From: Bacillus sp. RO3
GTDB taxonomy: Bacteria > Bacillota > Bacilli > Bacillales > Bacillaceae_B
DNA length: 64,000 nucleotides
Direction: 5' to 3'
Assembly (NCBI RefSeq): GCF_012911895.1
Contig: NZ_JAAXCV010000034.1
Coordinates: 1-64,000, forward strand
Below are positions 1 through 36,125 of the stretch, one piece after another (the stretch's first letter is position 1; every line of letters begins with the position of its first letter). The notes under the pieces are model-generated. The model ran no database searches. It was not told the DNA's origin and saw nothing but the letters and a program-made list of their open reading frames with translations. The position numbers and the translations under genes were made by a program.

Positions 1-324
1 GTCCCCGCTCTCCCTGAGGTCCCGGTTCGCCTTGAAGTCCCCGCTCTCCCTGAGGTCCGGGTTCGCCTTGAAGTCCTCGCTCTCCCTGAGGTCCCGGTTC
101 GCCTTGAAGTCCCCGCTCTCCCTGAGATCCCGGTTCGCCTTGAAGCCCCCGCTCTCCCTGAGGTCCCGGTTCGCCTTGAAGTCCCCGCTCTCCCTGAGAT
201 CCCGGTTCACCTTGAAGTCCCCGCTCTCCCTGAGGTCCGGGTTCACCTTGAAGCCCCCGCTCTCCCGGAGGTCCCGGTTCACCTTGAAGCCCCCGCTCAC
301 CCTGAGGTCCCGGTTCGCCTTGAG
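1..324. repeat. 36-bp tandem repeat coding for Gly-X-Y triplets
   Basis: About nine head-to-tail copies of a 36-bp unit, differing by a few substitutions (g/a in GAGAT versus GAGGT, GTCC versus GCCC). The period is exactly 12 codons and substitutions keep Gly at every third codon on the minus strand. The block is clearly more GC-rich than its surroundings. Such arrays vary in copy number by slippage or recombination. Confidence 0.9.
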
Positions 325-472
325 GACCCTGGATACGAGAAGAGCCTAATTCTTCATGAACGGCTTGGACTTCTTGTTGAAGAACGTCAGGTTCTTTGTT
401 TCTTTTTTTATCTTTTTCCCCCGTATATTTCTTTCGCTTGTCAGCCTTATTGCGATCTCTTTTAGTTGACAT
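1..472 (-). CDS. collagen-like (Gly-X-Y) surface protein, 3' part beyond window
   Basis: Read on the minus strand, an ATG at 472 opens a frame that stays open to the window edge (157 codons). The first ~47 residues are hydrophilic and Lys-rich (MSTKRDRNKADKR...), without a signal peptide. After them comes an unbroken Gly-X-Y array with the 12-residue unit GEP-GPQ-GER-GLQ. The start has a good ribosome site (AAGGTGAG) at proper spacing. Collagen-like proteins of this kind in spore formers (BclA-type) form hair-like filaments on the exosporium or outer coat. A short N-terminal head before the collagen region fits that family. The C-terminal domain lies outside the window, so class and length cannot be given. 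A sporulation-type promoter lies upstream (543-571), and coat-like genes and a glycan operon follow. Gly-X-Y repeats are certain; spore location is inferred. Confidence 0.85.
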   Translation of the reverse strand, partial: MSTKRDRNKADKRKKYTGEKDKKRNKEPDVLQQEVQAVHEELGSSRIQGPQGEPGPQGERGLQGEPGPPGERGLQGEPGPQGERGLQGEPGSQGERGLQGEPGPQGERGLQGEPGSQGERGLQGEPGPQGERGLQGEPGPQGERGLQGEPGPQGERG

Positions 473-813: not shown

Positions 814-1368
814 GTGGAAAATCTTTTCGCAGGAAAGAAGAAAATTTCAAAGAAAGAATTAGCAGCTTATGCGATGATCGGGGATGGGAAAGACGGCGAG
901 ATTTACAAGGTTGCTGAAGATAAAGTTTTAAAATACTTTTTTAGAGAAGAAACACACGAACGGGAATTGGAAGCGATGAAAATTGGGCAGGCCTCACCCA
1001 TTATGCCCCGCCTTTACGAGTTCGGTGACAATTACATTGTAATGGAATTTGTTAAAGGAATATCTCTTGCCCGCCATATGAAACGACAAGGCCATATCGA
1101 TGAGGACATGACCAAAAAGATTTTATTTGTGTTGGGAGAATTTAAGAGATTAGGTTTCACCAGGTGGGATACGGAGGTTCGTCATATGTTAATGAATGAA
1201 GAAGGCGAATTCAAAGTGATTGATCATAAGAGGGCGTTCACATCAGATTCTCCCGTACCAACGAAGCTTTTAAAAGGGATGAAGAAGTTTGGTTTAACCG
1301 GCGAGTTCCTGGGTCATGTTAAGACACTGGACCCCGATCTCCATAATGCCTGGAAAAAACTTAAGTAG
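814..1368 (+). CDS. small protein-kinase-fold protein (YrzF/YbdM-like)
   Basis: 184 residues from a GTG start, with AAGGAG at 799-804. The frame shows a reduced kinase fold: glycine-rich loop IGDGKDGEIYKV near residue 22, a lysine in VLKYF near 40, an alpha-C glutamate in ERELEAM, hinge IVMEF, a catalytic-loop-like WDTEVRHMLM near 120, and VIDHKRAF in place of DFG. The catalytic Asp seems kept (WD), but the residue five positions on, usually Asn, is His. It resembles the short kinase-like proteins YrzF/YbdM of Bacillus; that link is from memory. It sits between the collagen-like gene and the repeated-domain proteins and has a sporulation-type promoter, so a role in spore-surface phosphorylation (compare CotH) is possible but inferred. 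Confidence 0.65.
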   Translation: MENLFAGKKKISKKELAAYAMIGDGKDGEIYKVAEDKVLKYFFREETHERELEAMKIGQASPIMPRLYEFGDNYIVMEFVKGISLARHMKRQGHIDEDMTKKILFVLGEFKRLGFTRWDTEVRHMLMNEEGEFKVIDHKRAFTSDSPVPTKLLKGMKKFGLTGEFLGHVKTLDPDLHNAWKKLK

Positions 1369-1533: not shown

Positions 1534-1722
1534 TTAAACTTTTTTCACCGTTACCTGATCCAAGTGCGTAAATAAAACGTCCCCATCACCATTAGACCAA
1601 ACTAAGAAGTGATCTTCCGCTTTAATGAATGTTCCGTCGCAGTCTATTTTATCTGCTCCGGATAGGACTTCGATTTTATCACCAAGCTTTAGTACTTTAT
1701 TAAGTTTATCTGAAAAACCCAT
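1534..1722 (-). CDS. small acidic protein made of the shared LGD-W domain (copy A)
   Basis: 62 residues, ATG start with a strong AAGGAGGAGG site. The whole protein is one copy of a domain found four times in this window: helix LNKVLKLGDK, strand KIEVLSG, GTF, then FLVWSNGDGDV and a final VTVKKV. The predicted pattern of short strands around Gly and Trp suggests a small beta barrel of the SH3/Sm kind, a shape also used in coat-associated domains such as DUF2642; this fold is a guess. No signal peptide or membrane segment. It has its own terminator. Function unknown; the neighbours suggest a spore-surface component. Confidence 0.7.
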   Translation of the reverse strand: MGFSDKLNKVLKLGDKIEVLSGADKIDCDGTFIKAEDHFLVWSNGDGDVLFTHLDQVTVKKV

Positions 1723-1826
1723 AATGCCTCCTCCTTTCTTTACCGTGATACATTAGTCTATATATTTATATTAAATAAATCAGAATTTGATAGGGCTTTT
1801 ACCTATCATTTCGTTTTTTTAGAAAA

Positions 1827-1858
1827 GAAAAATGACTGGAGAGCTTCCAGTCATTTTT
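1827..1858 (-). terminator. intrinsic terminator after the 68-aa gene
   Basis: Stem ATGACTGGA / TCCAGTCAT with a 5-base loop. T-rich sequence follows on both strands, so it could act both ways; by position it serves the minus-strand gene ending at 1880. Confidence 0.8.
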
Positions 1859-1879
1859 GCTTTTATTAAATAATGTTGA

Positions 1880-2086
1880 CTATACTTTACGTACAGTTAC
1901 ATTATTTAAATTGGAAGTGTTCATATGGCCGTCGTCGTCAGCCCAAACAACGAAGTTATCACTTGCATAGACAAATGAACCCTCTTCGATTTGTTCGTCA
2001 CCAGATAGGACTTCGATTTTATCACCTAGAGCTAAAATTTTATTAAGAAAATCTGCCATACTTCCATCGTTGAATAAATGAGACAT
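1880..2086 (-). CDS. small acidic protein made of the shared LGD-W domain (copy B)
   Basis: 68 residues, ATG start with AAGGAGG. After a 12-residue head it repeats the domain of the neighbouring 62-aa protein: FLNKILALGDKIEVLSG, GSF, FVVWADDDGH, VTVRKV. It is a tandem paralogue of that protein but diverged in the middle. Strongly acidic. A sigma-K-like promoter (2114-2141) precedes it and a terminator follows, so it is probably a monocistronic late sporulation gene. No function is known to me; structural protein of the coat or outer layer is an inference. Confidence 0.7.
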   Translation of the reverse strand: MSHLFNDGSMADFLNKILALGDKIEVLSGDEQIEEGSFVYASDNFVVWADDDGHMNTSNLNNVTVRKV

Positions 2087-2113
2087 AATGTTTCCTCCTT
2101 TCGGTATTTACTC

Positions 2114-2141
2114 TATTTTTATGCTGAACCGAAAAATACGT
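2114..2141 (-). promoter_or_regulatory. sigma-K-like promoter for the 68-aa gene
   Basis: Minus strand: AC, exactly 16 bp, then CATAAAAATA (one extra base against CATANNNTA). Spacing and the CATA core agree with the sites at 543 and 3362. Confidence 0.4.
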
Positions 2142-2198
2142 TAAGGCAGATAACTAGATTTCAAAAAAATTTTTGTATTTGGTCATTTACTAGAGTAA

Positions 2199-3320
2199 TT
2201 AATCTTTATTCTCATCAGGCATAGAGTTCGTTGACGAAAGATCAGAGTCCATTTTCAAAGAATCCTCTTCTAGAAAGAACAAGGTTTCATCTTTGTTAAC
2301 AGATAAGGTATCGTCTTCAGAAAGCTCTGTCCGTTCATCTTCATTTGAAGTCTCTGTCAGTTCATTTTCACCAGAAGCCTCTTCAGTCCGTTCGTCCTCA
2401 TCTTCCCATGCATCCTGCTCCATTGTTGGATCCAGGCTATCATCGTTTATAACTTCCACTGTGTCAGCAGCATATTCTGTTGATAATTCATCACTTTCTG
2501 TCTCTGAGTCCATTTCCCCTAAAGGTTCCTCCACAACTGATTCGGATATCACAGCTCCTGAAACACTTTCAAGGAGGTTCTCTTCAGTAGCCGCTTCACT
2601 TTCCAGCAATTCAGTGTCCTCTGAATCTAGATGAACATCCAGTGTTACTACGGATGCACTTTCATCAGAATGTTCTTCTTTCTCAAGTTTTACGAAGTTC
2701 AGGACTTCTTCATTTACACTACGTTCATCTTTTCTTTCCTTCTTGCTTCCTTCTTTTTTTCTTGAACCCTTTTCTTTCTTATCTTTTGAACCTGACTTTT
2801 TCTCTTTCTTCTTATCCCTATGGTGATCTCCTTTATGTTTCTTACTTTTATCATTTTCTTTCTTTTTTCTCTTATGTTTGGAACCGATTTTCCTGACACT
2901 AATCGGGCCGCATAAATCTGTGAAATTGACATTTGCTTCATGATCCATCCAGACCAGAATATTGTCATAAGCTCCTACAAAAGTTCCTCCACAGCCAATC
3001 AACTCATCCTCGTTTAATACTTCAAGATGATCACCCAACTGGAATATTGTATTCAATACCTCGTCAATGGATTGACATGGAATCCGGTCAAAGTCCGGTT
3101 TTTTGCAATGATCAGGTTTGCATTCATGATGATCATGGGGGTCTCCTTCACAATACTCATCCGTTTCGTGAGGATCTCCTACGCATAACTCTTCTTGTTC
3201 ATCAGGGTCCCCTATACACAGCTCATCTTGCTCATCAGGATCTCCTTCGCAATGCTCATCATCGTCGTAATGATCGCTGTCACTTTTCGAGAAATCATCA
3301 TACTCAAACTCATCAACCAT
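2199..3320 (-). CDS. polyampholyte protein with embedded LGD-W domain
   Basis: 373 residues from the ATG at 3320. A GTG at 3332 is in frame, but the AAAGGAG site would overlap it, so the ATG is preferred. Order: (1) residues 1-75, acidic repeats of the type GDPDEQDELC, with Cys, His and Asp/Glu, a possible metal-binding tract; (2) about 85-145, a copy of the shared domain (LGDHLEVL, GTF, ILVWMD, ISVRKI); (3) about 150-205, a Lys/Glu/Arg/Ser tract (KKKENDKSKK...); (4) about 210-373, a Ser/Thr/Glu/Asp-rich acidic tail. Such alternating charge blocks resemble coat proteins like CotB and CotG in style. No signal peptide. Probably a structural spore-surface protein; the exact role is unknown. Confidence 0.7.
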   Translation of the reverse strand: MVDEFEYDDFSKSDSDHYDDDEHCEGDPDEQDELCIGDPDEQEELCVGDPHETDEYCEGDPHDHHECKPDHCKKPDFDRIPCQSIDEVLNTIFQLGDHLEVLNEDELIGCGGTFVGAYDNILVWMDHEANVNFTDLCGPISVRKIGSKHKRKKKENDKSKKHKGDHHRDKKKEKKSGSKDKKEKGSRKKEGSKKERKDERSVNEEVLNFVKLEKEEHSDESASVVTLDVHLDSEDTELLESEAATEENLLESVSGAVISESVVEEPLGEMDSETESDELSTEYAADTVEVINDDSLDPTMEQDAWEDEDERTEEASGENELTETSNEDERTELSEDDTLSVNKDETLFFLEEDSLKMDSDLSSTNSMPDENKD

Positions 3321-3361
3321 ATGTGTTCCCACTCCTTTACAATTTGTCTACAATTCATTAT

Positions 3362-3390
3362 CAATATATGTAGGTGAAAAAGGAATGTAT
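3362..3390 (-). promoter_or_regulatory. sigma-E/sigma-K-like promoter for the polyampholyte gene
   Basis: Minus strand: ATAC followed by a 16-bp spacer and CATATATTG. It reads as ATA-N17-CATATATT (sigma-E type) or AC-N16-CATA (sigma-K type). The ATAC plus ATTCCT stretch is shared with the site at 543-571. Confidence 0.45.
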
Positions 3391-3483
3391 AGCCTATTTT
3401 GTGGTATAACCCCAAAATTTGAATCACTCTGTCAGGGCTTTTGAATAGATTATCAATAGATACAGAGACATGGAGTGAAGCTC

Positions 3484-4980
3484 ATGCCCAATTGTTGTCT
3501 TTTTATAAATGAATACATTTTGCCAAGGATTTTTTCCTCCTTTTATTACGATGATCTTCTGGTCCCTTGTCACAATCAATCCATCTTCGTGAGCTATCAT
3601 GCTGTCAAAAAAACAAACGTGAATGCTAATGAAGAATTACAGCAACATCCGGCATATGTTAATTCAACACAAGTATCTCACATCATTAGTCATATGATGA
3701 GCAGTCTTGACCAATCAACTGATTATCATGAAGTATGCGACCGACCTACATTCGATCTCACTCTTGAATCAGAAGAACAGCAGCCGAGCATGATACTTTC
3801 TCGAATTAAGCCACGAAGGCATAAACGATCGCAAAAATCTCCTTTCCATCTATCGAGAGGGATATCCTCATCAGAAAGAATCAACTATATAGATCACAGC
3901 AAAACTCTTTCCAAATCAAGTTATCAAGCGAACTCGCCGCCTGACATACAACCTTTACAAAAGGCAGAAGACCTGGAGAATCCGCTCAAAGCAGAACGTT
4001 CAAAAGATATTCAGCAGAATACCTATTCAGACAAACATCATACACTGGACAGCAGTGAACCCACGATTGGAAAACATAAGAATCAAAAAAAACATAATCT
4101 ATCACCTAAAGAATCACACTTTCCTTCAAGCTCACCTTTTAAAAGCACGCCAATAACTGATGATGACTCTAAAAAAACGGGTGAAATAGATAATGAACTC
4201 AGACCGTCCAATCTGCGCGATGACATTAAACAGGCAGATACTCTTAAGAAAAAGACAGACCCACCTTTTAGAAAGAAAGACATCCAGTCAAAAGAATGCG
4301 TGAAGAACATAACAGAAACTGAGCCATCTACTGATGTTGACATCCGAGAATCAAACCTGGCAGCAGACAAAGTGAGATATCAACTCCTTCGCACTGATTG
4401 GAGACCTGCAAAAATCGTAAATCGCGATAGAAAGGGTACTTCAGGCTTCGAATTCCACATCCTTCGATCAAATGCAGAATCAAAAAAGGTAAAACAGGAT
4501 GTCAACCAGACAGAGGAGTCATCAAAAAAAATGGATTTAAGCAAAACAGACTTCACTACACTTCCTAAAAATGAGAGGTTTACTAGTTTACATTCAATCA
4601 CATCTGCTGAAAAAAAATTAAAATTGAAACGACCTGATAGCGCAACTGGAAAATCCATTAGTGATAACCGCCCTGATAGCCTAAAGTTGAACCCGCTAAA
4701 AACATTGGAAAGCGGAAAGCTCCAACAAAGAAAACAGCAAAGAAATGAGCATCCGGTCTCGCTTCCTTCCCAATCAGTGAATACGATGGCGATTTTGAAT
4801 AAATATTTCACACTCGGTGACAAAATCAACGTATTTTCAGGAAATAATCTACTTGATGAAAAAGGAACTTTTTTGACTGCAGGACCTGATTTCTTTATTT
4901 GGATCGATGGGGATGGATATGTAAGATTACAAATCATCAGCGGTGGGATCAGCATTACTCAAAAAAAGAAGAAGAAATAA
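3484..4980 (+). CDS. long basic low-complexity protein with C-terminal LGD-W domain
   Basis: 498 residues. A GTG at 3475 is in frame but overlaps the GGAG site, so the ATG at 3484 (8 bases after GGAG) is preferred. The first ~40 residues are hydrophobic and Cys-containing (MPNCCLFINEYILPR...). Residues ~100-430 are hydrophilic, rich in Lys, Ser, Asp and Glu, and probably unstructured. The last ~58 residues are the fourth copy of the shared domain (LGDKINVFSG, GTF, FFIWIDGDGYV, ISITQ), ending in a run of lysines. It runs divergently from the polyampholyte gene and ends in a hairpin (4981-5015). It has the look of a coat scaffold protein; no homologue recognised. Confidence 0.65.
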   Translation: MPNCCLFINEYILPRIFSSFYYDDLLVPCHNQSIFVSYHAVKKTNVNANEELQQHPAYVNSTQVSHIISHMMSSLDQSTDYHEVCDRPTFDLTLESEEQQPSMILSRIKPRRHKRSQKSPFHLSRGISSSERINYIDHSKTLSKSSYQANSPPDIQPLQKAEDLENPLKAERSKDIQQNTYSDKHHTLDSSEPTIGKHKNQKKHNLSPKESHFPSSSPFKSTPITDDDSKKTGEIDNELRPSNLRDDIKQADTLKKKTDPPFRKKDIQSKECVKNITETEPSTDVDIRESNLAADKVRYQLLRTDWRPAKIVNRDRKGTSGFEFHILRSNAESKKVKQDVNQTEESSKKMDLSKTDFTTLPKNERFTSLHSITSAEKKLKLKRPDSATGKSISDNRPDSLKLNPLKTLESGKLQQRKQQRNEHPVSLPSQSVNTMAILNKYFTLGDKINVFSGNNLLDEKGTFLTAGPDFFIWIDGDGYVRLQIISGGISITQKKKKK

Positions 4981-5072: not shown

Positions 5073-5729
5073 ATGAAAGAAACTGTATTGGTCATAGCAG
5101 CACATCCGGATGATGAACTACTCGGTACGGCAGGAACACTAAAAAGACTAGTAGATCAAGGAAATAGAGTGGTCTCGATCATTACAGCAAATGGAAGGAA
5201 AGAAGAAGCCCATCATATTCAACAGCTTGCCAGGAAAGCTAATAAAGAAATAGGGATTAAAGAAGTCATTTTCCTGGAGCATCCTAATCTTGAACTGGAA
5301 ATGATGCCTCTTCATCTTTTCACAAAAGAAATAGAAAAATTAATTGATATTTACCGACCAACCCAAATTTTTACCCATCATTACGGAGATGTGAATCGTG
5401 ATCATCAAATCACCTTTCAAGCCGTCTTAACAGCAGTCCGGCCTGTACCGACCAATCAACCGATTGAATTGATCACCTTTGAAACGGTCTCGTCCAGCGA
5501 ATGGAATACACAGACAAATGACAAACAATTCAAACCCAATTATTATGTAGACATTTCAGAAGTGATTGATGATAAACTGGCTTCTTTAAAACATTATGAT
5601 GTAGAAATGAGGGACTTCCCTCACCCAAGGTCTTATGAGGGAATCAAACATTTGGCAAGTGTAAGGGGCATGACGGTTGGGGTCCGTTATGCAGAGGCAT
5701 TTGAAGTTATTAGGAGGGTCTGGAAATGA
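5073..5729 (+). CDS. PIG-L family (GlcNAc-type) N-deacetylase
   Basis: 218 residues from the ATG at 5073 (GGGGTG site 6 bases before; the in-frame GTG at 5064 lies inside that site). The N-terminal motif AHPDDE, the zinc-binding signature of PIG-L/LmbE enzymes, is at about residues 11-16. A second histidine motif (THHYGDVNRDHQ) is near 107-118. Family members remove N-acetyl groups from sugars such as GlcNAc in GlcNAc-PI, mycothiol or bacillithiol precursors and lincosamides. Here it is the first gene of a six-gene operon with glycosyltransferases and an epimerase, so an N-acetyl sugar of a surface glycan is the likely substrate; bacillithiol synthesis (BshB) is less likely in this context. 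Its stop overlaps the next start (ATGA). Confidence 0.8.
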   Translation: MKETVLVIAAHPDDELLGTAGTLKRLVDQGNRVVSIITANGRKEEAHHIQQLARKANKEIGIKEVIFLEHPNLELEMMPLHLFTKEIEKLIDIYRPTQIFTHHYGDVNRDHQITFQAVLTAVRPVPTNQPIELITFETVSSSEWNTQTNDKQFKPNYYVDISEVIDDKLASLKHYDVEMRDFPHPRSYEGIKHLASVRGMTVGVRYAEAFEVIRRVWK

Positions 5730-7066
5730 AGGAACTATATTTCCCCTATCCTTACGTAGTATCTGCCCTAGACAACTATTACGGGATAAAAGCAAAGACA
5801 ATTACGACAAAATTAAAGGACTCCGACAAGGGGTCTAAACGCAGGAAGAAAGACCGTAAGAAGAAAAGCAAATCTGAAAAAACGAAGCGAAAAACAGACA
5901 ATAAGAAACTTTCCATTCTGATTGCAACTTTTTGGGACTATCCCCATACGGGCGGTTTATCCAACTACATTACAAGCATGCGTGATGGTCTGCGTGCTTT
6001 AGGTCATAAAGTTGATATCATTTCTCCAAATCAGTTTTCTCAAAGCAAAGTGGAAAAATTGCGGGAAGTTGTTGTTCCCGAACTAAAGAACTTTTTTCAA
6101 AATAGGTATGGAACGTATACGAGTAAGATCATTCAGAGCTGCCGACTCCTCTATATTTATGAGCAGATGATGAAAACAATTAAATTGGAAAAATACGACA
6201 TTCTTCATGCTCAGGATTTATTTACAGCCAACATTTTAGGAAGATTTAACGAACATCTAAATAAGCCGCTTCTATTTACCCCCCACGGCATGTTTACTCT
6301 AAGCCGTGTAAAGTTCAACCGGATTGAAAAAGGATCTGAAGAAGAGGTGTACTACAAAGAAATAGAAAAGAAGGCGATTGACTATGCAACCCATCTGGTG
6401 ATTTTGAGTGACTCTTTCCGTGATCCATTGAGATCACTTGGTGCGAATCCTGCCAAGATGACGACCATTAATACAGGAATTGATTTTAAATCAATGGCGC
6501 GAGTCGAGAAAAAAGGAAAGGTTGTCATTTCATGTATTGCCAGACTTGGTCCAAGAAAAGGACATTCCGATTTATTTAATGCCCTTTCCCGGATAAAGAC
6601 TGTAAGTCATGATATAGAAGTCCAAATTGTCGGAGACGGGGAAATGCGGGAAACACTCGAAGCTCAAGTTCAATCTTTAAGACTGTCAAACGTCCGATTC
6701 TTAGGTAAACGAGATGATATCCCTGCTATTTTAAGCAAAACGGATATTTTTGTTCTGCCAACTATCAATGACAATTTACCGATATCAATCATAGAAGCCA
6801 TGCATAGCGGTTCTGCCATACTTACAACCGATTGTGGCGGCATCACGGAAATCATCCATCATAATGATACAGGCATCATTGTACAACCTGGAAATGTCAG
6901 TCAGTTGGCCAACCACCTCAAACACTTGATTACAAATGAGCCGCTACGGAGGAAACTGGGCAGCAACGCTTCTCTATATGCCAGAAAACATCTCACTCGT
7001 GAAGCTATGATTGGGAAGATTGTTGAGACTTACCAAAGTCTATTCGTTTCAGGAGGGGAAATATGA
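5726..7066 (+). CDS. GT4 family glycosyltransferase (CotSA/YtcC-like), copy 1
   Basis: 446 residues. It starts inside the stop of the deacetylase gene (ATGA), which implies translational coupling. Residues 1-25 (YFPYPYVVSALDNYYGIK) resemble the N-terminus of the second glycosyltransferase in this operon. Then comes a very basic linker (~30-70). The GT-B fold follows: N-terminal YPHTGGLSNY near 80, acceptor-side domain, and a C-terminal Rossmann domain with RLGPRKGH and the nucleotide-sugar site around SIIEAMHSG. Group-1 enzymes transfer sugars from UDP/GDP donors with retention. In B. subtilis, relatives (CotSA, YtcC) work on the spore coat; this context matches. Donor and acceptor unknown. 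Confidence 0.85.
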   Translation: MKELYFPYPYVVSALDNYYGIKAKTITTKLKDSDKGSKRRKKDRKKKSKSEKTKRKTDNKKLSILIATFWDYPHTGGLSNYITSMRDGLRALGHKVDIISPNQFSQSKVEKLREVVVPELKNFFQNRYGTYTSKIIQSCRLLYIYEQMMKTIKLEKYDILHAQDLFTANILGRFNEHLNKPLLFTPHGMFTLSRVKFNRIEKGSEEEVYYKEIEKKAIDYATHLVILSDSFRDPLRSLGANPAKMTTINTGIDFKSMARVEKKGKVVISCIARLGPRKGHSDLFNALSRIKTVSHDIEVQIVGDGEMRETLEAQVQSLRLSNVRFLGKRDDIPAILSKTDIFVLPTINDNLPISIIEAMHSGSAILTTDCGGITEIIHHNDTGIIVQPGNVSQLANHLKHLITNEPLRRKLGSNASLYARKHLTREAMIGKIVETYQSLFVSGGEI

Positions 7067-8238
7067 AGTCATCTAATCCAGCAGTTGTCCTTGATTTAAG
7101 CGCAAATGGGGTTGGGATCATCCATGCTCTTTCCACGAAAGGAATTGATGTTTACGCATTTGATACTGCCGGCCCCCATTCAAGGGGAAAATCAAGACTT
7201 GCCACCTGTGGGGTATGTCCAAGCCCCTTAACCCAAGAAACTGAGCTGCTCTCCTTTCTAAAAGATGTAGCGATGCAACTTGAAGATAAGCCCGTTCTAT
7301 ACGCAGGTGCAGATGATTATGTGGTCTTTATCTCTAAATTCAGAGATCAATTGTCACAGTATTACTTATTTCTATATCCAGACCACTCTTTGATTATGGA
7401 TCTATTAGATAAGAAAAAAACCTATGAACTAGCCTTGAAACATCATGTGCCGACAGCGAAAACCTTTTTTGTGGAAAACGAAGAGCAACTTGAAGAAGCA
7501 ATCGGTCAATTAGAATTTCCTTGTATTCTAAAGCCTGTATTCGGGCATGAATTCAGAAAACATGTAAATAAAAAGGCCATTCATATACAAGACGCCATTC
7601 AATTAAAGAAAATCTTTCCTATATACAGGAAATTTGGAGAGCTTATCATTCAGGAAATCATCCCTGGAGATAACAAATGCTTCTATAAAGTAGCCACATT
7701 CTATAATGAAGAGATGGAATTGCTCGCCCTCTTCACACTTCAAAAAAACCACCAATTCCCGGCTCAGTTTGGAACGGGGGCGCATATCGTAAGCAAGCGA
7801 ATACCAGAACTTGTAGAAGCAGGTGTTCCATTATTAAAAACCCTTGGGCTAAAAGGAGTCAGTATGATTGAATATAAAAAGGACCCGCGGGACGGACAAT
7901 ATAAGCTCATCGAAATCAATCCACGTTTCTGGCTTACCCATAGTTTGACAGGGCATTCCGGAGTGGACTTTGCCTATCAGTATTATCTGTACCTTACTGG
8001 TAAAAACCCCTCCCCTCAATTGCAGCAGGTAGAAGGAGTACAATGGATTTACCTTGTTCGTTACTTCCTTACCTTTCTTGAAAAAAGGAAGAACGGTGAA
8101 ATGAACCTTATAGATTTTTTCAATGGGTTAAGAGGGAGAAAGGTCTTCGCTCTTTTTGCTTTGAAGGATCCAATGCCCTTTATAAGGAGTACCACATCTC
8201 ACTTATGGAATGCATTTAAAAGAAAACGAAAGGAGTGA
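7063..8238 (+). CDS. ATP-grasp domain enzyme of the glycan operon
   Basis: 391 residues, start overlapping the previous stop by ATGA. N-terminal pre-ATP-grasp Rossmann part (VVLDLSANGVGIIHAL) with a nucleotide-type GAD region near 85. The ATP-grasp lobe follows: FPCILKPVFGHEF near 155, IIQEIIPGD near 195, and the metal-binding end YKLIEINPRFW near 285. Families of this kind (DUF-type carboxylate-amine ligases, PylC/CarB-like) couple an amino acid or carboxylate to an amine using ATP. Together with a deacetylase that would free an amino group on a sugar, one can imagine amide decoration of a glycan; that is inference. Confidence 0.75.
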   Translation: MKSSNPAVVLDLSANGVGIIHALSTKGIDVYAFDTAGPHSRGKSRLATCGVCPSPLTQETELLSFLKDVAMQLEDKPVLYAGADDYVVFISKFRDQLSQYYLFLYPDHSLIMDLLDKKKTYELALKHHVPTAKTFFVENEEQLEEAIGQLEFPCILKPVFGHEFRKHVNKKAIHIQDAIQLKKIFPIYRKFGELIIQEIIPGDNKCFYKVATFYNEEMELLALFTLQKNHQFPAQFGTGAHIVSKRIPELVEAGVPLLKTLGLKGVSMIEYKKDPRDGQYKLIEINPRFWLTHSLTGHSGVDFAYQYYLYLTGKNPSPQLQQVEGVQWIYLVRYFLTFLEKRKNGEMNLIDFFNGLRGRKVFALFALKDPMPFIRSTTSHLWNAFKRKRKE

Positions 8239-8245
8239 TTGCGTT

Positions 8246-9307
8246 TTGTACACACCAAAAGAAGTGTATGCCCACTTCCAAAAACATGCAATTGAAGAAA
8301 AGCTCTCTGCCTCACTCGGGAATAAAGTGACCATCCTTCCCGGATCAATCCAAAACCTTAAATCCACCAAAAGAAGCAGCATTTATCAGATCCAGTTACA
8401 GAAGAATACAGACATCTACCCCATCATCTTCAAAATCTACCATTCTACCAAATACAAGAATGAAATCGAAATCAATGTTTATAGTCAAGCTTACCCAGTA
8501 TTAAAGGATTTTCTTCCTGAAATGTATTTAATGGAGAAAATAGGGAGTGATACTTGGGTATTCATGGAGTTCGTCCGTCAAATTCGGGGACAGCTGACAT
8601 TCACACCCAAGCACTTTGATTACATTATCCCTACCCTTGCAAAACTTCATGCCCACACTTTTGAGGGGAATTTCAAGAAAGAAAAAAACATCTTCCAGTC
8701 ATGGTTTCCCCTCTACAGTTCACCAAAAATGAAAAAAGACCGGGAGAAATTCATCACCAATACTGTGACGTTTCTAGATAGGGCCAAAAAAGATAAGCAA
8801 TTAAAAGACATAATCAAGCCACATTACAAATCATTAACAACTCTGTACAGAACCGGTCCAGACTTTTTCCCGGAATTATTGGACAGCGGTTCTTCCATTA
8901 CTCATGGGGATCTTCATATGCAGAACATCTGCTCAAAAGATGTCAGTAAAAATGAGCCTTGGGAGATACAATTCATCGATTGGGAGTCAGCCAAATATTC
9001 ACCGACCTGGTTTGATATGATTGTTCTGGTAGAAATTTTACTTGGATTCAGGAAAGATTGGCAAAAGAATGCAGAAGAGATTCGCACCCATACAGTGGAT
9101 GTTTATACGAAGGAAATGAAAAAATACGGCATCGAATTCAGCACCAAGCCCATTCATTTATATAAAATGGCCTATCTGCAACGCACTCTTGAAAAGGGAT
9201 TACACACTCAGCTTAGACGTATTTTCGATAATCGTGGAGGTGAACTCCTTCCCTATCACTTAGAAAAAATTTCAACATGGGGAAGTGAGCTGGGAATTTA
9301 TAAATAA
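8246..9307 (+). CDS. CotS/aminoglycoside-phosphotransferase-fold protein
   Basis: 353 residues from a TTG at 8246, 10 bases after AAAGGAG; the in-frame ATG at 8210 has no such site and lies inside the previous gene, so the TTG is preferred. Kinase-like fold of the APH/choline-kinase type: VIFKIY-like lysine region (IIFKIYHS) near 65, ITHGDLHMQN (Brenner motif) near 218 and IQFIDWESA near 240. Both catalytic and metal aspartates are present, so it may be an active small-molecule kinase. Spore coat proteins CotS and CotI (YtaA) of B. subtilis have this fold and lie beside coat glycosyltransferases. Candidate substrates are a sugar or lipid acceptor. Confidence 0.75.
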   Translation: MYTPKEVYAHFQKHAIEEKLSASLGNKVTILPGSIQNLKSTKRSSIYQIQLQKNTDIYPIIFKIYHSTKYKNEIEINVYSQAYPVLKDFLPEMYLMEKIGSDTWVFMEFVRQIRGQLTFTPKHFDYIIPTLAKLHAHTFEGNFKKEKNIFQSWFPLYSSPKMKKDREKFITNTVTFLDRAKKDKQLKDIIKPHYKSLTTLYRTGPDFFPELLDSGSSITHGDLHMQNICSKDVSKNEPWEIQFIDWESAKYSPTWFDMIVLVEILLGFRKDWQKNAEEIRTHTVDVYTKEMKKYGIEFSTKPIHLYKMAYLQRTLEKGLHTQLRRIFDNRGGELLPYHLEKISTWGSELGIYK

Positions 9308-9327: not shown

Positions 9328-10605
9328 TTGAGTAGCATGCCCCCTCTCAACATTCATCCCTCCCTTTTGTCCATCATGGATCAGTATTATAAAGTGGAAC
9401 GAGACAATGAGGAGTCCTTCACAATTCAACCATTTGGTCAGAAAACAGAAGGCGATGATTCCAAGCCATTGAAAATCTTATACGTTACGTTTTTTCAATA
9501 TCCTCATACAGGCGGTTTATCTCATTACATCACTTCCATTAAAAACGGTTTTGAAAAGGCCGGTCATAGTGTAGATGTCCTGGCACCCAACCACATGTCT
9601 TCAGAACAACTGGAAGAATGGGTCCCCCAGGCGGCTTCTGAAGCCCGAAACTTTATGACTGAACGTTATGGAAAGACCAATGAAAAAATCGTTAAAAATT
9701 TAAGTTTTTTACATGTATTCGAACTCTTTTTGAAAGAAAAAAATCTCCAGCAATATGACATCATACACGCTCAAGACTTATTTGCCATTTTCATCCTGGG
9801 TCACTTAAACCAAACGTATCAAAAACCTTTATTCTTTACGCCTCACGGATTCTTTACGAAAAGCAGATTAAAATTCGGTAAAATGCAGAAAGGCTCCCTC
9901 GAGGAAGCATATTTCACTCAACTTGAGAAAATAGGGATTGAAGCAAGTACGGAAATCATTTTGATTGCCGATTCCTTCCGATCTAACCTTAAGGAATTCG
10001 GTGCAACAGATGAAAAGATGATTACCGTTCATACAGGTATCGACTATGATCCCCTCCCAAAGAAAAATCACGAAAACATCATCCTGACATGTGTTTCCCG
10101 ACTTTCCCCGCGTAAAGGGCATGGGTTACTCTTAGAAGCATTATCCTTGTTACGTGAACATCTGACAAACGTTGAGGTGTGGATTGTCGGGGATGGTGTC
10201 ATGAAGGATCATCTGGTGAAACAAGCACAAGAATTACAATTGGACAACGTGATCTTTTGGGGAAATCGCAACGATATACCAAACATTCTATCCATGTCGG
10301 ACATCTATGTATTAGCGACGGTTAATGACAATTTTCCCCTATCCGTCATGGAGGCAATGTTTTCTCAACAAGCCGTGATTTCCACCACGTGTGGTGGGAT
10401 CCCTGAAATGGTTCAGCATGAAATTACAGGCATCCTTTGTGATCCCGGGAATGTCGAACAGCTTGCACATGCGATCAAACGTTTTATAACAAAGAAAGAA
10501 GAACGTGAACGCTTTGCCAACACCGCTCAATCCTATGCCCGTCAACATTTGTCCAGTCACATCATGACGAGGAAAATGGAACGAATCTATCAAACCTATA
10601 TATGA
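9328..10605 (+). CDS. GT4 family glycosyltransferase (CotSA/YtcC-like), copy 2
   Basis: 425 residues from a TTG at 9328 (AAAGGA 9 bases before); an ATG at 9337 is also possible. Clear paralogue of the GT at 5726: both carry an N-terminal P-x-x-x-S-x-x-D-x-YY peptide, the YPHTGGLS motif, IHAQDLF, FTPHG, ADSFR/SDSFR, TGIDY/F and SRLSPRKGH. Unlike copy 1 it lacks the poly-basic linker. The GT-B nucleotide-sugar site is at SVMEAMFS near 345. Two related enzymes with a shared N-terminal peptide suggest two successive, similar sugar additions, or docking to one partner. Membrane segments are absent. Confidence 0.85.
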   Translation: MSSMPPLNIHPSLLSIMDQYYKVERDNEESFTIQPFGQKTEGDDSKPLKILYVTFFQYPHTGGLSHYITSIKNGFEKAGHSVDVLAPNHMSSEQLEEWVPQAASEARNFMTERYGKTNEKIVKNLSFLHVFELFLKEKNLQQYDIIHAQDLFAIFILGHLNQTYQKPLFFTPHGFFTKSRLKFGKMQKGSLEEAYFTQLEKIGIEASTEIILIADSFRSNLKEFGATDEKMITVHTGIDYDPLPKKNHENIILTCVSRLSPRKGHGLLLEALSLLREHLTNVEVWIVGDGVMKDHLVKQAQELQLDNVIFWGNRNDIPNILSMSDIYVLATVNDNFPLSVMEAMFSQQAVISTTCGGIPEMVQHEITGILCDPGNVEQLAHAIKRFITKKEERERFANTAQSYARQHLSSHIMTRKMERIYQTYI

Positions 10606-10621: not shown

Positions 10622-10657
10622 ATGAGGGAAAACATACTGGTCCATGAGCAAATATGA
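10622..10657 (+). CDS. 11-codon leader reading frame coupled to the epimerase gene
   Basis: ATG at 10622 preceded by a strong AAAGGAG (10608-10614). Eleven codons (MRENILVHEQI) end in a TGA that overlaps the ATG of the epimerase at 10654 (ATGA). The epimerase start has no good ribosome site of its own, so ribosomes reading this mini-frame would reinitiate there. It could also be the remnant of an older start. Confidence 0.4.
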   Translation: MRENILVHEQI

Positions 10658-11574
10658 AGATTTTAGTCACTGGCGGAGCAGGATTTATAGGTTCACACCT
10701 GGTAGATTTGCTGCTATCTGAGGGTCATACACCTATTATTCTAGATGATTTATCCAATGGCAGTGAGGCGAACGTGCCAAGCGGAGTGAAACTATATCGA
10801 AAAGATATATTATCGGATAAAGTGGAACATATTTTCAAAAAAGAAAAACCAGACATCGTTATGCACCTGGCTGCTCAGGTTAATGTAGATAGATCAATGG
10901 AAAACCCCGCAGAAGATGCTGCAATCAATGTATTGGGAACTTTGAGATTGTTAGAGTACAGTATAAAATATGGTGTAAAAAAATTCATCTTCTCCTCTTC
11001 ATGTGCTGTATACGGATATACAAATGAAGTGATCCACGAAGAAAGTCCTACTAGCCCCATTTCCTTTTACGGAACGTCTAAATTGGTGTCAGAAACCTAT
11101 ATCAAGTTGTTTCACAGGTTATATCATATTCCCTATACGATCCTTCGATACGCAAATGTATATGGGCCGAGACAGCGAACTGATGGTGAAGGCGGAGTGA
11201 TCAGCATTTTCATTGATCAGCTGTTAAGTGATGAAACACCTGTCATTTACGGAGATGGCAACCAGACAAGGGACTTTGTCTACGTAGAAGACGTCGCCCG
11301 TGCAAACCTTCTTTCGGTTTCAAACGCTGATAACCTAGTCGTTAATATCGGTTCTGGCAGCCAAACATCCGTAAACCTGCTCTTTACCCTGCTTTCAAAC
11401 CTGCTCAACTTATCTAAAACACCTACCTATGTATCTAAACGTAACGGGGATATTATGCACAGCCAGCTAACAAACGCAAAAGCATCTGAAAATCTCTCTT
11501 GGGAACCTAAATATGACCTGATTTCTGGATTAGAGCACACATTGGCCTATTTCAAAGAACGAAAAAAAGAGTGA
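10654..11574 (+). CDS. NAD-dependent nucleotide-sugar epimerase/dehydratase (YtcB/GalE-like)
   Basis: 306 residues. Extended SDR: GGAGFIGSH near residue 7 (NAD binding), D-D in ILDDLSNG near 33, HLAAQVNV near 73, SSSCAVYG near 116 and the catalytic YGTSK (Tyr-x-x-x-Lys) near 141. The C-terminal half carries the sugar-nucleotide part (GPRQRTDGEGGVI, DFVYVEDVA). Length is a little shorter than GalE (~330). It fits UDP-sugar 4-epimerases or decarboxylases of surface polysaccharide pathways, and B. subtilis YtcB next to coat glycosyltransferases. Last gene of the operon, followed by a terminator. It presumably supplies the activated sugar used by the two transferases. Confidence 0.85.
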   Translation: MKILVTGGAGFIGSHLVDLLLSEGHTPIILDDLSNGSEANVPSGVKLYRKDILSDKVEHIFKKEKPDIVMHLAAQVNVDRSMENPAEDAAINVLGTLRLLEYSIKYGVKKFIFSSSCAVYGYTNEVIHEESPTSPISFYGTSKLVSETYIKLFHRLYHIPYTILRYANVYGPRQRTDGEGGVISIFIDQLLSDETPVIYGDGNQTRDFVYVEDVARANLLSVSNADNLVVNIGSGSQTSVNLLFTLLSNLLNLSKTPTYVSKRNGDIMHSQLTNAKASENLSWEPKYDLISGLEHTLAYFKERKKE

Positions 11575-35840: not shown

Positions 35841-36065
35841 CCAAAAAACCACGTCCCTATACAAAGGGACGTGGTTTACGCGGTACCACCCTCATTGAAG
35901 ATCTCTCTTCCACTCAATAGGGATAACGGACCGGCCGTTCTCTGCTACTTCAATGTTCACAAAGAATGTTTAAGGAGGTAATTCGCTCTTATCTGTGTAC
36001 TGATTTTCACCAAGCATCAGCTCTCTGCAACAGGGAGATAAGTCACTACTGATTCCTATCATGAC
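35841..36065 (-). ncRNA. tyrosine T-box riboswitch leader
   Basis: On the minus strand the leader ends with the conserved T-box GGGTGGTACCGCG (35891-35879) and, directly after, a strong terminator (ACCACGTCCC / GGGACGTGGT then TTTTTT, 35877-35841). The specifier codon appears to be UAC (35999-35997), Tyr, in a Stem I region that runs back to about 36065. Uncharged tRNA-Tyr would stabilise the antiterminator and allow tyrZ transcription. The 5' end is estimated. Confidence 0.9.
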
Positions 36066-36125
36066 ATGTATGATTTTGAATTTTCATTTATTTTACAGAA
36101 GAGGAAAGAAAATTGCAATCATTTT

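Follow-up and report, generated by a model that had tools for sequence, protein, structure and literature searches.

A four-copy domain with a predicted Sm/SH3-class fold in a spore-type gene cluster of Rossellomorea and its putative role in spore-surface assembly

Among the described proteins of the spore surface, GerQ forms C9 rings through a continuous antiparallel sheet to which neighboring subunits contribute strands (PMC11405398), and CotB combines an N-terminal part that binds itself with a Ser-rich tail that is phosphorylated by CotH (PMC7821199). Here, we analyzed a stretch of 64,000 nucleotides from Bacillus sp. RO3 (positions 1 to 64,000 of contig NZ_JAAXCV010000034.1, assembly GCF_012911895.1; hereafter the window), in which four neighboring genes of this Bacillus-like Rossellomorea genome each encode a copy of a ~58-residue domain. 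The domain copies are real and statistically significant, and they carry no family name. The domain is a probable Sm/SH3-class barrel of the Sm/Hfq type, judging from structural models, and its spore context is well supported.

The first copy, d1, is the whole of a 62-residue protein (1534..1722, minus strand) with orthologs at 82-100% identity, and the second, d2 (domain at 1883-2062), likewise makes up a 68-residue protein (1880..2086, minus strand). Both bare-domain proteins are acidic, with isoelectric points (pI) of 5.1 for d1 and 4.2 for d2. The third copy, d3 (2886-3077), lies within a 373-residue acidic protein (pI 4.3; 2199..3320, minus strand, open reading frame from the ATG at 3320), in which Cys/Asp/Glu repeats precede the domain and a Lys/Glu-rich tail follows it. 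The fourth, d4 (4786-4962), belongs to a 498-residue basic protein (pI 9.3; 3484..4980, plus strand) that runs from a conserved N terminus, MPNCxLFINEYILPRIFSS, through a long Ser/Thr/Lys-rich linker to the domain and a KKKKK end. The start sites that give 373 and 498 residues each have a good ribosome-binding site.

A query of the 4.2-Mb genome with the 62-residue copy found these four places only (E = 4.6e-38, 2.4e-14, 1.8e-9, and 4.6e-8). When each copy was scored with a profile built from the remaining three, the real copies reached 75.7, 70.8, 59.0, and 47.6 bits, compared with 9.5, 13.1, 13.4, and 8.6 bits for the best of 2,000 shuffles per copy. Ten columns are identical in all four copies (L-N, L-G-D, V, G, F, A, W), and in an alignment of 31 members the strictly invariant positions shrink to G14, D15, G30, and W42, while V19 is almost invariant. 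The sequence-only reading had placed four copies in proteins of 62, 68, 373, and 498 residues and had listed much the same conserved positions; the open reading frames, the genome search, and the shuffle-controlled profiles bear this out. The profile search that it proposed for the four copies gives a significant similarity and puts the domain in no characterized non-spore family. Its description of the 498-residue protein as basic stands, whereas the 373-residue protein, which it had called a polyampholyte, is acidic overall rather than neutral.

That reading also took the copies for old duplicates. In a tree of domain copies (~62 columns, with supports of only about 0.77-0.98), each window copy groups with the copy at the same position in genome G063 (locus L052), which belongs to another GTDB family and whose four copies are arranged as in the window. 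Because each class groups across lineages, the four classes appear to predate the split of these lineages, albeit with modest support. Sequence comparison further indicates that the domain is conserved and that the tails evolve fast. An acidic d3 protein (pI 4.1-4.9) is found in all species but Halobacillus kuroshimensis, and a basic d4 protein (pI 8.2-10.0) in all genomes but G063. The lengths of the d4 proteins range from 261 to 917 residues, leaving out a shortened Halobacillus dabanensis protein, and their repeats are expanded in some species. Two Rossellomorea loci (L019 and L020, from G014 and G017) carry several copies of a ~38-residue d4 repeat (PPAKEVKYHLNRTDFRPKKIVNEDKKKAADFNFDILSS), giving proteins of 806 and 917 residues, compared with about one copy in the window. 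The d3 protein of G063 (L052:7125-9590) has 821 residues, and its domain is followed by a long array of acidic repeats. The shortened H. dabanensis d4 protein (L069:4600-5073) has just 157 residues, without the N-terminal region usual in this class, and its gene may be broken.

The fold was predicted with AlphaFold2 for d1 and for the divergent d4. Both models are confident (predicted local distance difference test scores of 93.3 and 88.3) and show one helix and five strands each; they are not fully independent, as their alignments of 26 and 20 sequences share members. The best rows of a structural aligner were Hfq for both d1 (Z 7.8, root-mean-square deviation (rmsd) 2.2 over 60 residues) and d4 (Z 7.0). 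The GerQ filament subunit (8zra) gave Z 7.3 (rmsd 2.2, 59 residues) and Z 6.5 (64 residues), and the Bacillus subtilis crust protein CgeA (9l9d) gave Z 6.7 (rmsd 2.6, 62 residues) and Z 6.8 (64 residues). By the calibration of the tool these values are middling, so they support an Sm/SH3-class barrel without proving descent. These matches, GerQ and CgeA among them, and the two models agree with the SH3/Sm-like barrel for which the sequence-only reading had suggested a structure prediction, and the models together with the spore-type gene context support its view of the domain as a modular unit.

By sequence, none of the Pfam and NCBIfam models was significant for any domain member. The earlier suggestion of a tie to DUF2642 (PF10842), a family of similar size that also occurs in spore formers, did not hold: membership was rejected, with no hidden Markov model (HMM) match at E<=1 among the window proteins and the 31 members and a nonsignificant hhalign comparison (E 0.12, probability 0.5%). 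The genome of the window has two genuine DUF2642 proteins elsewhere. The tie to the CotB domains, proposed at the same time, remains suggestive only. No Pfam match to the CotB repeat (DUF6897) was found in the 31 members, and the GGPES-type motif is absent from all alignment rows; hhalign gave a weak match to the CotB repeats, with a probability of 27.8%, 34 columns in register, and a pairwise E of 6e-4. In the same set-up, CotB and DUF2642 matched each other at 94.3%, which indicates that the comparison is able to detect true relatives of this kind, and a B. subtilis CotB query (approximate sequence) matched DUF6897 at 5.4e-12. GerQ (PF09671) was likewise rejected by sequence, with no Pfam match in the 31 members and an hhalign probability of 0.1%. 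A profile search of PDB sequences returned phosphagen kinases and SPT5 KOW domains as its best rows; we treated these partial-domain matches as chance or local similarity.

The relatives of the window are Rossellomorea, with Rossellomorea sp. AcN35-11 99.1% identical over 8.7 kb. A 690-kb linear "plasmid" of Cytobacillus spongiae (NZ_CP089998.1, L063) matches the window at 99.05% identity across 9.7 kb, which is far too similar for another genus and points to contamination, misassembly, misnaming, or a very recent transfer. The domain is present in 8 of 36 genomes of the Rossellomorea genus, in four copies every time. An order-wide sample gave a match in 14 of 397 genomes, including G148, which looks like a false positive, as does a Herbinix locus (L072); in both, short matches lie within unrelated proteins. 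Copy numbers are four in H. dabanensis, three in Jeotgalibacillus soli and in G100, two in H. kuroshimensis, and one each in G036, G293, and G110. Priestia species mostly have a single copy, in short proteins with a basic N terminus encoded on chromosomes or plasmids. In Priestia megaterium QM B1551, one of these (L062:7896-8180) is carried by plasmid pBM600 (NC_014031.1), which has been tied to the formation of the exosporium; this 94-residue protein (WP_013060410.1) is annotated as hypothetical and lies near sugar-nucleotide genes. Another Priestia copy (G366:C7:44553-44708; L056:4500-4649) has an in-frame TGA and is a decayed duplicate a few kilobases from an intact copy. A class-wide sample contributed two further genomes with a 61-69-residue copy; one of them also encodes a 230-residue protein that has the domain at its end. 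Weaker relatives turned up in this sample in G518, in G743, and in three genomes belonging to a single genus. A search of phages for the domain gave no match.

This distribution follows sporulation. All 21 genomes tested carry spoIVA (the apparent false positive G148 counted among them), so among the genomes tested the domain is confined to endospore formers, as expected of a spore protein; in the class sample, spoIVA occurs in 10/10 domain-bearing genomes versus 268/398 overall (p 0.018). Exact sigma-K-type promoter sites were found in two of seven upstream regions, those of the adjoining kinase-like and collagen-like genes, a number that 11 of 2,000 shuffled sets reach, and the -10 elements of both are largely conserved between species. 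We gave no weight to the relaxed matches (5/6 positions) that precede d3 and d4. The spore context assumed in the sequence-only reading is thus supported by spoIVA, by the structural matches to GerQ and CgeA, and by a conserved spore-type neighborhood.

In that neighborhood, a BclA-like collagen gene, a small kinase gene, and the four domain genes are followed by genes for a PIG-L protein, glycosyltransferases, an ATP-grasp enzyme, and a kinase, an order kept in Rossellomorea, Halobacillus, and G063 and partly in Jeotgalibacillus. The collagen-like (BclA-type) gene, which adjoins the cluster in Rossellomorea, starts within the window and runs off it (1..472, minus strand); it has GXY repeats in 36-base units and its sigma-K-type site at 569, and its L018 ortholog matches Pfam Collagen at 5e-28 and BclA_C weakly, below the cut-off (2.8e-6). 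The small protein-kinase-like gene (814..1368, plus strand; sigma-K-type site at 747) adjoins the domain genes in Rossellomorea, Halobacillus, and G063. Motifs read by eye show that GxGxxG, K, E, a catalytic-type D, and a metal-type D are conserved and that His replaces the usual Asn. To the right, all on the plus strand, lie a PIG-L family deacetylase (5073..5729; PF02585, 7.6e-22), a GT4 glycosyltransferase (5726..7066; PF00534, 1.1e-36), an ATP-grasp enzyme (7063..8238; PF02786, 1.5e-7), an EcKL/APH-fold kinase-like protein (8210..9307; PF02958, 4.7e-12), a second GT4 glycosyltransferase (9328..10605; PF00534, 4.1e-39), and an NDP-sugar epimerase/dehydratase (10654..11574; PF01370, 5.8e-66), beyond which SpoIIP is encoded on the opposite strand. 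G063 has a CotS-family gene (TIGR02906, 2.7e-91) and a glycosyltransferase close to its domain genes. Elsewhere in the window, an ordinary T-box leader (35862-36071, minus strand) precedes a tyrosyl-tRNA synthetase-like gene.

We propose, as a reading that we find fairly probable, that the Sm/Hfq-fold barrel is a self-associating assembly unit of a spore-surface layer made by the mother cell, into which it brings acidic and basic tails together. The analysis establishes the homology of the copies, the predicted fold, the gene order, the restriction to genomes with spoIVA, and the tail charges; from these we infer oligomerization, co-assembly, location, phosphorylation, and the role of a glycan. 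The layer would be the outer coat or the base of the exosporium. The 62- and 68-residue proteins would be the bare building block, polymerizing through their barrels, and subunits might join edge to edge by beta strands, in the manner of the GerQ barrel within its nine-membered rings. The same domain on the 373- and 498-residue proteins would admit both to one lattice, where their disordered acidic and basic tails would fill and hold the layer, knit together by their opposite charges, by Cys residues, and perhaps also by phosphorylation; the neighboring kinase may act on both tails. The PIG-L, glycosyltransferase, and ATP-grasp products could make or attach a glycan of the layer, and the collagen-like protein could form its outer fibers.

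Comparison with described barrel proteins gives this proposal both its model and its limits. GerQ resembles the predicted fold across 59-64 residues, pairs a small barrel with a long low-complexity region, and occurs in spore formers, but it was found in 41/41 genomes and nearly always once, whereas the domain is patchy and often multicopy. CgeA resembles the predicted fold across the entire domain and belongs to the outermost layer of the spore, but it is only 8-14% identical to the domain and was not found by profile search. Our literature searches found neither a structural paper on CgeA nor anything on Rossellomorea spore surfaces. Several observations weigh against an assembly unit of this kind. 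All Z values are below 8, and the tool warns that such values may mean merely a common barrel; no Foldseek match fell below E 0.001. There is no detectable sequence relation to GerQ, and neither GerQ nor CgeA appeared in the PDB-sequence profile search (E<=10). In the seven upstream regions scanned, the domain genes themselves have no exact sigma-K site. The charge pattern is broken by the d3 protein of H. kuroshimensis (pI 9.7) and the d4 protein of G063 (pI 6.5).

The "assembly or anchoring" role that the sequence-only reading gave to the domain could also be realized by anchoring. A monomeric Sm/SH3-like domain may bind a ligand of the spore surface, such as a peptide or a glycan made by the neighboring genes, and so anchor the tails without forming a lattice of its own. 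Glycan genes do adjoin the domain genes, W and G residues are conserved, and Tudor- and SH3-type barrels of similar Z bind ligands; but GerQ, by fold the nearest solved spore-protein filament, self-assembles, and two proteins consist of the domain alone, a composition more in keeping with a building block than with an anchor. We regard such a ligand-binding module as rather unlikely. That the proteins bind RNA in the sporulating cell, as Sm/Hfq-type proteins and not as structural coat proteins, is far less credible and in our view highly improbable. Hfq is the best structural match, with helix and strands in the same order, but the YKHA-type Sm2 RNA-binding motif that defines Hfq is absent from every aligned copy. 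The bare-domain proteins are moreover acidic, the domain is multicopy and fused to long Cys-rich acidic and Ser/Lys-rich tails, and its neighbors are collagen and glycan genes of a spore-surface cluster.

A further alternative places the domain within the CotB/DUF2642 repeat superfamily, as a true but highly diverged branch that would do in this clade the job that CotB does with CotG and CotH in B. subtilis. The in-register profile match to the CotB repeats points this way, and the combination of a barrel, a disordered Ser/Lys-rich tail, and a kinase nearby recalls CotB with its DUF6897/DUF2642-like N-terminal repeats, CotG, and CotH (PMC7821199). Within the Rossellomorea genus, CotB and CotH are each found in 0/8 domain-bearing genomes versus 18/28 and 19/28 of the others (one-sided Fisher p 0.0014 and 0.0008). 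This absence would fit a replacement, yet it probably reflects a single event in one clade, because the three domain-bearing genomes placed in a marker tree all fall in one group, and the Jeotgalibacillus genome G072 has the domain and CotB together. No DUF2642 or DUF6897 HMM matches any of the 31 members, the GGPES motif is missing, and the kinase here is small and Pkinase/RIO-like rather than CotH. The self-association of the CotB N-terminal part and the phosphorylation of its tail by CotH (PMC7821199) offer a working precedent for the proposed layer but not evidence of membership, and we consider descent from the superfamily distinctly unlikely.

The assembly-unit proposal is testable, as the bare 62-residue protein is small enough to be crystallized or imaged directly. 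It is a tentative and rather doubtful extension that the cluster encodes an undescribed spore-envelope system, in which an Sm-fold ring unit, bare and fused to oppositely charged disordered tails, would hold acidic and basic polymers in one lattice tuned by a dedicated small kinase and would replace CotB-CotG-CotH in this clade. The folds and contacts of most coat and exosporium proteins are unknown, and an Sm-type brick would add one more spore-surface family. If the proposal is correct, the domain would join GerQ, CgeA, and perhaps CotB in using a ring-capable barrel, which would suggest that Sm-like barrels are widely used as bricks at the spore surface, and several genes now annotated as encoding hypothetical proteins, including the one on pBM600 of P. 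megaterium, would gain a name.

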